A stretch of 55,191 nt of DNA from Planctomycetota bacterium (GTDB lineage Bacteria > Planctomycetota > UBA1135 > GCA-002686595). Of the stretch, positions 2,253-6,375 are shown in pieces. Position 1 is the stretch's first letter. Every line of letters starts with the position of its first letter. The notes beneath the pieces are model-generated. The model saw only the letters and a program-made list of their open reading frames with translations. It did no database searches and was not told the DNA's origin. The position numbers and the translations under genes were made by a program. The stretch is taken from NCBI GenBank assembly GCA_029212845.1, contig JARGPD010000006.1, positions 5,799-60,989 on the forward strand. The letters are read 5' to 3'.

Positions 2253-2284
2253 CTCCCTCGCGGGACGGCGCTAGCGAAGAACGA

Positions 2285-2318
2285 AGGCGCGCGCCGACCC
2301 AGGGGTTGGCGCGCGCCT
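2285..2318. terminator. Probable bidirectional terminator between convergent genes
   Basis: Inverted repeat AGGCGCGCGCC (2285-2295) / GGCGCGCGCCT (2308-2318) between the stops of the NifU-like gene (+) and the 2341-3669 gene (-). Confidence 0.7.
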
Positions 2319-2340
2319 CCTTCGATCCCGACTCGGTCGC

Positions 2341-3669
2341 CTAGAAGGGAGCGCTGGTCGAGGTCCCGAGGATGTCGAAGAGGTTCGTGTCCAGCAGGAT
2401 CGCCTGCAGGGTCACGAGGCCGGCGAAGCTGCCGGGGTTGAGGAAGCTCGTGCTGCTCGTGCCAGCACCGTCCACGGGCAAGACGCCGCCGAAGACCTGG
2501 AGGGAGCCGAGGTCCAAGCCGGTGAAGAGCGTCGGGACGACGCCCGCGAGGCTGTAGGCGCTCTCGGTGCCGGAGACCAGCGCCGTGGGACCGAAGAACA
2601 GGAGCGCGCCGCCGCCCGGCTCTGCACCGTTCACGGTGATGTCCACGGTGCCTGCTCCGGAGAGGCCGGCGCCGGAGAGCTGCAGCTCTGGGCGCTTCGC
2701 CTGGACCTCGTTCCGCACGGCCGGGTTCACGAAGTCGGTCGTCGTGTAGAACAGGCGCGCATCGTCTGCGGGCTGGTAGGCCCGCAGCTCGGGCGCGGCG
2801 ATGCCGGACTGCACCTCGAGGTTCGACATCCAGTTGAAGGTCTGGCCGTCGACCAAGGGCGCGCCAGAGGCGGGCCCGCCGGTGATCGCCCAGACGCGGT
2901 TGGCACCCGTGCTGAAGTTGTTCTCGATCATGTAGGCATGGCCGGTGCGCTTGTCGACGACGAGGGACGAAGCCCCGTCGTAGCCGGTCGCGAAGGGGAT
3001 CGCGTCGGTGAGTCCGAGGCAGGCCCCGAGGGTGCAGTCGGCCATCGCGAGGTCCGCCGCGGAGAACAGCAGCACGTCGGTCGAGCCCGCGGGCGCGGGG
3101 AACAGGTCCGAGATCGTGGCGTAGTAGAGGTTGCCGAGGGCATCGACGCCGATCGGGCCCGAGGCACCGGGCAGCTGGGCGAGCTCGGTGACGGCGCCAG
3201 TCGTGGTGTCCAAGCGGAGCAGGCTGTTGCCGGAGCCGAAGCCACCGATCGCGGCGCTCAGGTAGTAGTCCCCGCTGGCCGAGAAGGCCCCGTCGTAGTT
3301 GAAGACGATGTCGGCGAGCTGGGTCATGCCGCTGCCATCGAGGGCGACGCGGAAGACCGGGTTGGGCGTGGCGCTGCTGTCCGTGCGGCCGACGATGGCG
3401 AAGGTCTCGGTCGGATCGATGTCGAAGCAGCCACCAAAGAGGCTGCTCGGGAAGACGCCGAGGTTCTGGACGAAGGTGCCGTCCGCGCTCCAGCGATCGA
3501 CACCCACGGAGTCCACCGTGATGATGTCGCCGCTGCTGAGGGTGCGGCTGGAGGAGCCGCCGGGCAGCACCTGGGGGGATGCCGCGACGCCCTGATCGAG
3601 GACGTCGGTGGCGAGGGCGGGGGAGGTGCAGAGGAGGCCCACGAAGAGGGCCGATGTGGTGAGGTTCAT
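2341..3669 (-). CDS. Secreted protein, probable beta-propeller-like (repeat-rich), downstream of a cobalamin riboswitch
   Basis: Signal peptide MNLTTSALFVGLLCTSPALA|TD; recurring blade-like segments (VDRWSADGTFVQNLG, VFRVALDGSGMTQLADI, LLRLDTTTGAVTELAQLPGASGPIGVDALGNLYYAT, RVWAITGG); C-terminal LVTLQAILLDTNLF segment. Confidence 0.75.
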   Translation of the reverse strand: MNLTTSALFVGLLCTSPALATDVLDQGVAASPQVLPGGSSSRTLSSGDIITVDSVGVDRWSADGTFVQNLGVFPSSLFGGCFDIDPTETFAIVGRTDSSATPNPVFRVALDGSGMTQLADIVFNYDGAFSASGDYYLSAAIGGFGSGNSLLRLDTTTGAVTELAQLPGASGPIGVDALGNLYYATISDLFPAPAGSTDVLLFSAADLAMADCTLGACLGLTDAIPFATGYDGASSLVVDKRTGHAYMIENNFSTGANRVWAITGGPASGAPLVDGQTFNWMSNLEVQSGIAAPELRAYQPADDARLFYTTTDFVNPAVRNEVQAKRPELQLSGAGLSGAGTVDITVNGAEPGGGALLFFGPTALVSGTESAYSLAGVVPTLFTGLDLGSLQVFGGVLPVDGAGTSSTSFLNPGSFAGLVTLQAILLDTNLFDILGTSTSAPF

Positions 3670-3682
3670 CTTGAGGTAATGG

Positions 3683-3704
3683 GGTTCGATGACCGCGTCG
3701 AACC
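3683..3704 (-). promoter_or_regulatory. Hairpin just upstream of the start codon; candidate expression platform of the cobalamin riboswitch
   Basis: GGTTCGA (3683-3689) / TCGAACC (3698-3704), 13 nt from the ATG at 3669. A second hairpin GGACCAC-GGA-GTGGTCC lies at 3740-3756. Confidence 0.4.
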
Positions 3705-3798
3705 GGAGACCTCTGCAGGCCGCTCACCATGGGGCTCTGGGACCACGGAGTGGTCCTGCCTTGGGGTGCGCGGCCTCCTTCGGGCCCCGGGGATCCCT

Positions 3799-3973
3799 GC
3801 ACTTGGGTGGATATCCTGACTCGCCCATCCACCGCGCGGAGGCCTTCCCGGGCAAGCTGCCCAGTGACCGAAGGGGAGGACCCTTCTCCGGACCAAGGTC
3901 CGGCTCGCACGGCAACGAGCTCACAGTGGCGGGACCGTGCAGGATTCCAACCTGCTTCCCCAACACCAAGTGC
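3799..3973 (-). ncRNA. Cobalamin (B12) riboswitch, Cbl-I-like
   Basis: Minus-strand RNA: GCACUUGG...GGGGAAGCAGGUUGGAAUCCUGCACGGUCCCGCCACUGUGA...GGUCACUGGGCAGCUUGCCCGGGAAGGC...GAGUCAGGAUAUCCACCCAAGUGC. Contains the GGUNGGAAUCC...CCCGCCACUGUGA core, the P8-P10-like CACUGGGC..GCCCGGGAAGGC element, the 3' B12 box (AGUCAGGAUAUCC) and a perfect 8-bp P1 (GCACUUGG/CCAAGUGC). Confidence 0.9.
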
Positions 3974-4194: not shown

Positions 4195-6375
4195 ATGCCC
4201 AGCTCACCGACCCGCAGCAAGCTCGCCCTCTTCCTCGTTGCCTTCGCGTCCGTCGCGATCCTGGCGCTCCCCGGATGCAAGGAAGACCCGACCAGCCAGC
4301 CGTCGGACCTGACGCTGCTCTACACGGGCAACGTGCACGGGTACATCGAGCCGTGTGGTTGCGCGGCCGGTCAGATCGGCGGCATCGATCGCATCGCGGG
4401 TTACGTCGGGGAGACCCTCGCCGACCTCGGTCCGCGAGGGCTGTTCATCGACACGGGAGACCTCCTGGCCTCGGGCCCGCCGACCGAGGAGCTGACCGTG
4501 CAGCAGCTGCGCATCAAGGCGCGGGGCTTCTTCGAGGTCTGGGCCGAGCTCGGCTGCTCCGCGATCGCCCTCGGCGAGGCCGAGGTCGCCCTAGGCGTGC
4601 GCGAGGTGGCGGCCCTCGCCGACGAGTTCCAAGTGCCCGTCCTGTGCGCCAACATCGTGGACGCCCAGGGCCAGAGTCCCCTGCCGGACTGGGTGATCGT
4701 CGAGCGCGGTGGCCTCAAGGTGGGGGTCTTCAGCGTGCTCGCGGGGACCTTGAACGAGGTGGCACCGAAGAAGAAGCCGGTGGATCGCAGGCGCTACCAG
4801 ATCTCCAAGCTGTTGCGGGCCCAGGGCCTGACCCTGGAGCCGTGGAAGGTGCGTGCCGCCGAGGTGATCGCGGAGCTTCGACCCCAGGTCGATGTGCTGG
4901 TCTGCGCCTCGCACCTCGGCTACGACAACAACGTGCTGCTGGCCGAGGCGCACCCCGAGCTCGACATGATCGTCGGTGGGCACTTCGGCAGCAGCAGCGG
5001 GCAGACGGACGTGATCGCCGGCACGCCGGTGCTGACCACGCGCATCAACGGCAGCCGGGTCGGGCGCATGGACTGGTGGCTGCCCAACCCAGGCGAGTAC
5101 CTCGCCAACGAGCGCGATGGCACCACCGGCGAGCTGGTCGACGTCTCGATGCGCGCCGAAGCCGAGATCGAGCTCGAGGTGGCCATCCAGGCCTACAGCG
5201 ACCTGGCTGGCATGGAGCGCAAGTACGGCACGGCCGAGTGGGAGCGCAAGCTGGCGACCCAGGAGGCGATGTACGAGCTCGCACTCGAGCGCCTGCGTGA
5301 GCTCGAGCCGGTCGGAGAGGTCAACCGCTTCGCCCACAACCAGGTCCCCATGCACCGCGGGGTCACGCGCAGCAACGAAGCCCTCGCCGCCGTGGACGAG
5401 TACCACCGCGCCACGACGGCCTACTGGCAGGCACGCGACGCCGAGTCGCCCGACCTCGGACCCCACCAGCGCGCCTTCGTCGGCCCAGAGAACTGCACCG
5501 CCTGCCACCCCGAGCAGGTCGAGTTCTGGCTGGGCACGCGCCACAGCCGCGCCTTCGCGACCCTCGAGGCCACCAGCCAGGCCTACGACGCTGAGTGCAT
5601 CGGCTGCCACACCGTGGGCTTCCAGGTGCAAGGCGGCTTCGACCTGCCGACGCGCTCGGAGGGCTTCCAGAACGTGCAGTGCGCGGCGTGTCACGGAGCT
5701 GGCGCCGCCCATGTCGCGGGCGGCAAGAGCTACCTGCTGAAGGGCCTGATCAACAACGGCATGAACGGCTGCGCACGCTGCCATCAAGGTGAGCACGACC
5801 CGACCTTCGAGCAGACCGGCGCCGAGAAGCTGCTCAGGGTCATGTGCCCGCCGATCTTGCCGGCTGGCATGCACACCTCCGCCATGGATGCTGCCTACCT
5901 CGAAGGCGCGACCGAGCTCCGACGCCGGGAGAACCCCAACTGGGACGTGGTCTCGCGCGCCTACAACGAAGCTGGCGAGCTCGAGCTGGCCCTCGAGGTC
6001 GCCAAGGAGTGGGTCGCCGCCCGACCGGGCAACATCCCAGCGCGGCTCAATCTGGCCGAGCGCGCGATCAACAGCGAGGACTACCAGCTCGCGATCAAGA
6101 ACTATCGTCTCGTGACCCACAACCAGCCGGACAACCCGCGCGGCTGGATGGGGCTCGCCATCTCCTTGTTCGAGCTCGAGCGCTTCGACGAATCCCTGGT
6201 CGCTGCCCGTGAGTGCTACGCCCTCTCGCCGAGCGAGTCGATGGCCGCACGCATCGTCGGGATGGGCCTGATGGCATGTGGCAAGCCCGACGAGGCGCGT
6301 GCTCACTTCGAGCGGCACCTAGGATTCCATCCCGAGCACGAGGGCTTCCTCGCCGACCTCATGAGCCAGCTCTAG
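4195..6375 (+). CDS. Lipoprotein: UshA/5'-nucleotidase-like metallophosphatase domain fused to a multiheme (4x CxxCH) cytochrome c domain and C-terminal TPR-like region
   Basis: LALPGC lipobox; LLYTGNVHGYIEPCGC..IDTGDLL..ASHLGYD..DMIVGGH; heme motifs CTACH, CIGCH, CAACH, CARCH; C-terminal helical repeats (AYNEAGELELALEVAKEW...). ORF opens at 4162 but the lipoprotein start is at 4195. Confidence 0.85.
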   Translation: MPSSPTRSKLALFLVAFASVAILALPGCKEDPTSQPSDLTLLYTGNVHGYIEPCGCAAGQIGGIDRIAGYVGETLADLGPRGLFIDTGDLLASGPPTEELTVQQLRIKARGFFEVWAELGCSAIALGEAEVALGVREVAALADEFQVPVLCANIVDAQGQSPLPDWVIVERGGLKVGVFSVLAGTLNEVAPKKKPVDRRRYQISKLLRAQGLTLEPWKVRAAEVIAELRPQVDVLVCASHLGYDNNVLLAEAHPELDMIVGGHFGSSSGQTDVIAGTPVLTTRINGSRVGRMDWWLPNPGEYLANERDGTTGELVDVSMRAEAEIELEVAIQAYSDLAGMERKYGTAEWERKLATQEAMYELALERLRELEPVGEVNRFAHNQVPMHRGVTRSNEALAAVDEYHRATTAYWQARDAESPDLGPHQRAFVGPENCTACHPEQVEFWLGTRHSRAFATLEATSQAYDAECIGCHTVGFQVQGGFDLPTRSEGFQNVQCAACHGAGAAHVAGGKSYLLKGLINNGMNGCARCHQGEHDPTFEQTGAEKLLRVMCPPILPAGMHTSAMDAAYLEGATELRRRENPNWDVVSRAYNEAGELELALEVAKEWVAARPGNIPARLNLAERAINSEDYQLAIKNYRLVTHNQPDNPRGWMGLAISLFELERFDESLVAARECYALSPSESMAARIVGMGLMACGKPDEARAHFERHLGFHPEHEGFLADLMSQL

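Follow-up and report, generated by a model that had tools for sequence, protein, structure and literature searches.

The window, a stretch of 55,191 nucleotides from a Planctomycetota bacterium (contig JARGPD010000006.1), harbours a single cobalamin riboswitch, followed after 120 bp by the gene of a secreted protein (Table 1). The RF00174 match covers the full model (positions 1 to 189, E-value 1.2e-14) and scores far over the gathering cutoff. RF00174 was the sole cobalamin-clan family in the cmscan output, which omits overlapping weaker members of the clan. Behind the aptamer, the only sizeable ORF on the minus strand starts with ATG and comprises 442 codons. The initial annotation had claimed a cobalamin riboswitch on the minus strand, with a signal-peptide protein described as 'propeller-like' as the only gene downstream. 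The covariance-model search and the reading of the ORF and its signal peptide bear out the first two of these claims. The 'propeller-like' description is also right, since the best fold matches of the model are SMP-30/gluconolactonase-type propellers and the designed protein Pizza6. The divergent plus-strand gene at 4198, coding for a nucleotidase/cytochrome c554/TPR protein, was rejected as a target of the riboswitch because it is on the wrong strand. In this neighbour (4198-6375), cytochrome c554/c7-type haem motifs and TPR repeats are preceded by an apparent nucleotidase-like N-terminal region.

Table 1. Features of the riboswitch locus (window coordinates)
Feature	Position	Strand	Basis or remark
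Cobalamin riboswitch aptamer, RF00174	3789..3984	(-)	cmscan, 67.7 bits; gathering cutoff 31.5
Hairpin ggttcgaCGCGGTCAtcgaacc, candidate P13/L13	3683..3704	(-)	14-35 nt 5' of the start codon
Gene for 442-aa secreted protein, six-bladed-type beta-propeller and C-terminal beta-sandwich	2341..3669	(-)	ORF, model, Foldseek, homologues
Sec signal peptide, residues 1-20 (MNLTTSALFVGLLCTSPALA)	3610..3669	(-)	Direct sequence reading
Beta-propeller domain, ~residues 28-315	2725..3588	(-)	Alignment A1 and DSSP of model
C-terminal all-beta (sandwich) domain, ~residues 316-442	2344..2724	(-)	DSSP of model: ten strands
Stable GC-rich hairpin between convergent genes	2284..2324	(-)	Fold -39.9 kcal/mol, z -3.07

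The 442-aa protein has no match above chance in Pfam searched to an E-value of 1 (the best being LRR_8, 0.24), no match in NCBIfam and no convincing relative in the PDB by sequence or profile search. We collected 28 homologues, including the window protein itself, in an alignment (A1) whose other members are 26-46% identical to it. Their propeller domains share the motifs GES(S), FNYDA, SAA, GPSGP, YYxT and YQP. The signal peptide ends in SPALA and lacks a lipobox; the homologues likewise start with signal peptides, among which no lipobox is obvious. Based on this alignment, AlphaFold2 produced a model of all 442 residues with a mean pLDDT of 90.4 and a pTM of 0.86. Its top Foldseek matches are six-bladed propellers of the SMP-30/Drp35/gluconolactonase type and Pizza6, those to Drp35 and XC5397 having E-values of ~1e-7 and target TM-scores of ~0.6. 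Both the strand count of the model and these matches fit six blades. A B12-independent isozyme or a biosynthesis enzyme was discarded, as the protein matches no such family and is exported. It founds a protein family under B12 control that has not been described before.

The gene is convergent with a gene coding for a NifU-domain protein (nifU), beyond which lie tRNA-Leu and a D-Ala-D-Ala-ligase-like gene. This layout, read from the sequence alone, agrees with the proposal that the gene is the sole target of the riboswitch. The terminator placed after its stop codon in the initial annotation stands only in part. A very stable GC-rich hairpin is indeed present (z-score -3.1), but no U-tract was found at it, so that it does not qualify as a canonical intrinsic terminator, although it may possibly act as one.

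Homologues are present in 46 of 61 related genomes of the order, in which an RF00174 scan detected 89 riboswitches. In 43 of these 46 genomes, the same strand carries a riboswitch 76-561 bp ahead of the gene, or ahead of its first copy where two are in tandem; chance would yield ~1e-4 per gene for an assumed genome size of 4.5 Mb. Two of the three unlinked genes are at contig ends, and the third (G038), on a short contig, has no upstream riboswitch. When 349 Planctomycetota genomes were searched with a profile, the family was found in 43, several other taxonomic families included. Our second set consisted of 30 family-bearing genomes outside the first 61, 24 from other planctomycete families and six from that of the window. 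There, the riboswitch is linked to the gene in 25 genomes, directly upstream in 22 and at the head of an operon in three; the exceptions are a sub-threshold match (G312) and fragments or no match in four genomes (G107, G114, G150 and G333). Altogether, a cobalamin riboswitch precedes the gene, directly or via an operon, in 68 of 76 Planctomycetota genomes, the majority of those surveyed being metagenome bins. Upstream riboswitches are thus consistently present among the homologues. A related-locus search with a smaller alignment returned 10 named loci, most of them from Planctomycetota bins and from Pla163, a cultivated strain carrying a homologue.

Linkage on this scale rules out a false or chance riboswitch match. 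Identity within the family reaches down to ~26% across the 76 genomes. A fixed syntenic accident was also rejected, because the neighbours change between taxonomic families while the switch remains: they are tRNA-Leu and nifU in the taxonomic family to which the window belongs, TIM and DAHP synthase in family f6, and btuCDF in genus g62. Diverged paralogues in three genomes (G015, G027 and G007) have no riboswitch, and B12 control therefore belongs to the orthologue and not to the fold. The propeller fold alone does not imply B12. Larger riboswitch-free paralogue frames, of 634-683 residues, are found at G015:C1:4085998-4087773 and G027:C152:89498-91258.

The leaders also offer a candidate expression platform. 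Of 28 homologous leaders, 17 contain the motif TCGA[CA]N3-7TCGA at most 48 nt from the start codon, compared with a mean of 0.05 and a maximum of 2 in mononucleotide shuffles. It corresponds to a hairpin of the form UUCGA-CGnGGnn-UCGAA just 5' of the start codon. In the aptamers of homologous loci, the L5 segment GGUCCCGCC is near-invariant, and the hairpin loop CGnGGnn could pair with its UCCCG given one bulged base. Kissing of L5 and L13 is an established coupling device in cobalamin riboswitches (PMC9600662). Judging from these leaders, translational repression by B12, through putative L5-L13 pairing, is the likely mode of control.

In all three genomes of genus g62 (G373, G197 and G238), the only riboswitch of the genome lies ~3 kb upstream of the propeller gene, with the order riboswitch-btuC-btuD-btuF-propeller. 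The intervening genes were read in G373 and G197, and G238 was assigned by the same spacing. Their products match FecCD (BtuC), ABC_tran (BtuD) and Peripla_BP_2 (BtuF). In G373, btuC, btuD and btuF overlap or are a few bases apart, and the propeller gene starts ~70 bp past btuF. Among the loci examined, g62 is the only genus in which btuCDF adjoins the family gene, and no TonB or outer-membrane receptor gene is adjacent to it. One locus of G107, which does not contain the family gene, combines a riboswitch with btuCD and a TonB receptor gene.

Apart from those at the propeller genes, the order has 46 riboswitches, which mainly precede genes for BtuF lipoproteins, BtuC permeases, or an adenosyltransferase with BtuF. 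Secreted proteins of the discoidin-like type (11) and YncE-like propellers (11) are further targets, as is a DUF6580 membrane protein, and a few riboswitches have no clear target, in some cases owing to contig ends. The only other riboswitch of the window's own genome precedes btuC and an ABC ATPase gene. Based on this genomic comparison, B12 regulation of the propeller family and its membership in the B12-uptake regulon are well supported.

Other members of this regulon deserve mention. The discoidin-like or 'cell surface' secreted family (alignment A4), found at L048:7420-8457, L081:5790-6812, L083:798-1826 and eight other loci, has no Pfam match and shows weak similarity to LIC_13355 lipoproteins. 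Its gene is sometimes in one operon with a propeller gene. A discoidin-like protein is encoded between riboswitch and propeller in G290 and after the propeller in G353. The DUF6580 protein is encoded immediately behind a cobalamin riboswitch (L072:572-1171), which makes it a candidate component of a B12 transporter. In taxonomic family f90, the gene following the propeller gene, and possibly sharing its operon, codes for a protein of ~1,400 residues with PKD domains and YVTN-like repeats (L143:5347-9597, L142:1640-6061).

The distribution of the YncE-like propellers is complementary to that of the window family. A YncE-like profile matches 13 of the 15 genomes of the order without the window family versus one of the 46 with it (G031), a difference with a Fisher p-value of 2e-10 in a test that ignores shared ancestry. 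Within the taxonomic family of the window, YncE-like proteins occur in three of four genomes lacking the window family and in one of 33 having it (p-value 0.002, shared ancestry again ignored). These proteins are secreted, combine a propeller with a C-terminal beta domain and are usually under a cobalamin riboswitch (L082:5158-6567, L098:642-2051, L067:458-1705 and others; alignment A3). In G004 and G031, a single riboswitch is followed by a discoidin-like gene and then by the YncE-like gene. Unlike the window family, they match YVTN, YncE and hydrazine-synthase-beta propellers and are modelled as a larger propeller. We rejected them as relatives of the window family: the alignment of the two profiles extends over 110 columns only, with 90% probability, and the common part consists of generic propeller repeats. 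Because their distribution is complementary, the two propellers appear to be interchangeable designs for one job.

The order, a large group of aquatic bacteria, probably cannot make B12 and lives on scavenged B12, as corrin-ring methyltransferases, all of which belong to the tetrapyrrole methylase family, are missing from its near-complete genomes. No member of that family scored over the cut-off in any of the 30, whereas all 14 controls were positive. The genome of the window likewise has no tetrapyrrole methylase, and it contains eight matches to B12-binding domains over the cut-off, MetH among them. TP_methylase (PF00590) is missing from nearly the entire order (61 related genomes). By implication, RsmI, which is normally widespread, would be missing along with B12 synthesis.

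The initial annotation had pointed to BtuG of Bacteroidetes and suggested that the protein may be a secreted B12-binding or scavenging protein of a different phylum. A scavenging function is strongly supported by the comparative evidence, namely the near-universal riboswitch, the co-operonic btuCDF, the apparent B12 auxotrophy and the replacement by another propeller. Like BtuG, the family consists of exported beta-propellers under a cobalamin riboswitch in B12-scavenging bacteria, with a link to btuCDF genes. A relationship to BtuG, in contrast, is not supported. BtuG is riboswitch-controlled and located outside the outer membrane (PMC6143338), and BtuG2 is seven-bladed (PMC10404256), whereas the window family is modelled as an apparently six-bladed propeller with an additional C-terminal sandwich. 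Furthermore, BtuG is a surface lipoprotein that pairs with BtuB, while the window protein has no lipobox and btuB does not adjoin the family gene in any locus read. Homology was rejected on the basis of Pfam, with no match to DUF5074 (PF16819, BtuG) up to an E-value of 1, together with the fold search, in which no BtuG entry is among the best 50 matches listed.

Similarities to other proteins are also partial. BtuH and DUF4465/BtuJ are exported, riboswitch-regulated auxiliary B12 proteins of beta folds (PMC8941943, PMC13398666), but the main domain of the window protein is a propeller and not a jelly roll, and Pfam gave no match to the DUF4465 HMM. The SMP-30/gluconolactonase/Drp35 proteins, six-bladed as well, are the closest solved folds to the N-terminal domain; the window protein differs from them by its C-terminal domain and its control by a cobalamin riboswitch. 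BtuG has been reported as exclusive to Bacteroidetes, with gut competition as the explanation given (PMC6143338). In the largely open-access literature searched, there is no description of the new family, nor of cobalamin-riboswitch targets or BtuG in Planctomycetes.

Given the near-universal B12 riboswitch and the importer operon of one genus, a B12-capture role is probable. We propose that the locus is one unit of the B12-uptake regulon of B12-scavenging Planctomycetota. Plentiful cellular cobalamin would bind the riboswitch in the mRNA leader, and the L5 loop would then probably kiss the P13/L13 hairpin, so that translation would be blocked. When B12 is scarce, the protein would be made, exported by Sec and serve as a soluble or surface-attached corrinoid-capture factor that concentrates B12. 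The captured B12 may then be handed over to an outer-membrane transporter and the BtuF-BtuCD ABC importer. What BtuG does in Bacteroides would thus fall to another protein, whose propeller, apparently of six blades, is followed by a beta-sandwich. We consider this explanation as a whole, with the protein as a non-homologous functional counterpart of BtuG, to be reasonably probable. That the family has a role in B12 uptake is highly likely. Among more specific readings, we favour direct binding of corrinoids outside the cell, to which we give fair credence.

The six-bladed SMP-30/Drp35-like fold is also found in metal-dependent lactonases. Instead of a binding protein, the product might be an exported metal-dependent hydrolase of the SMP-30/Drp35 type, which would act on corrinoids or another nutrient under B12 shortage, for instance by freeing bound corrinoids or remodelling them. 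Gluconolactonase and Drp35 propellers are its best fold matches and conserved polar motifs (FDG, GES, FNYDA and AEN) line the repeats, yet neither SGL (PF08450) nor any lactonase model of Pfam or NCBIfam matches it, and the TM-scores are moderate and common to non-enzymes such as designed Pizza proteins and WD40 propellers. We regard an enzyme as quite improbable. Alternatively, the protein might be produced upon B12 starvation without touching corrinoids, for example as an adhesin by which cells attach to particles or to algae that produce B12. Such a function would suit a secreted, all-beta protein with a C-terminal sandwich weakly similar to a fucose-binding lectin (E-value ~0.05). It fits poorly with the presence of btuCDF in the same operon in genus g62, with the fact that a single YncE-like propeller, controlled by the same switch, usually takes the place of the family, and with nearly one stand-alone copy per genome across large divergence, and is in our view distinctly improbable too.

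The remaining alternative concerns the place of action: the protein might work in the periplasm, together with BtuF/BtuCD or with the TonB machinery, and would then still serve B12 uptake, although not by surface capture. The propeller gene comes after btuF in the g62 operon and, because the signal peptide is cleavable and lacks a lipobox, the protein is not obviously anchored outside. Nevertheless, the analogous riboswitch-controlled BtuG propellers are located outside the outer membrane (PMC6143338) and the ABC genes do not adjoin the family gene in most genomes, which makes a periplasmic role unlikely.

It seems somewhat likely that a secreted B12-capture protein arose separately in Planctomycetota, on a propeller-plus-sandwich scaffold with no relation to BtuG, and that some lineages swapped it for a YncE-based design. 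If so, extracellular B12 piracy would be a convergent, riboswitch-controlled trait well past the gut, and high-affinity extracellular capture would be a general answer to B12 scarcity, including in an environmental phylum. A large unannotated protein family thereby gains a function-bearing context, with one cultivated strain (Pla163) available for tests, and it may offer a new cobalamin-binding scaffold.
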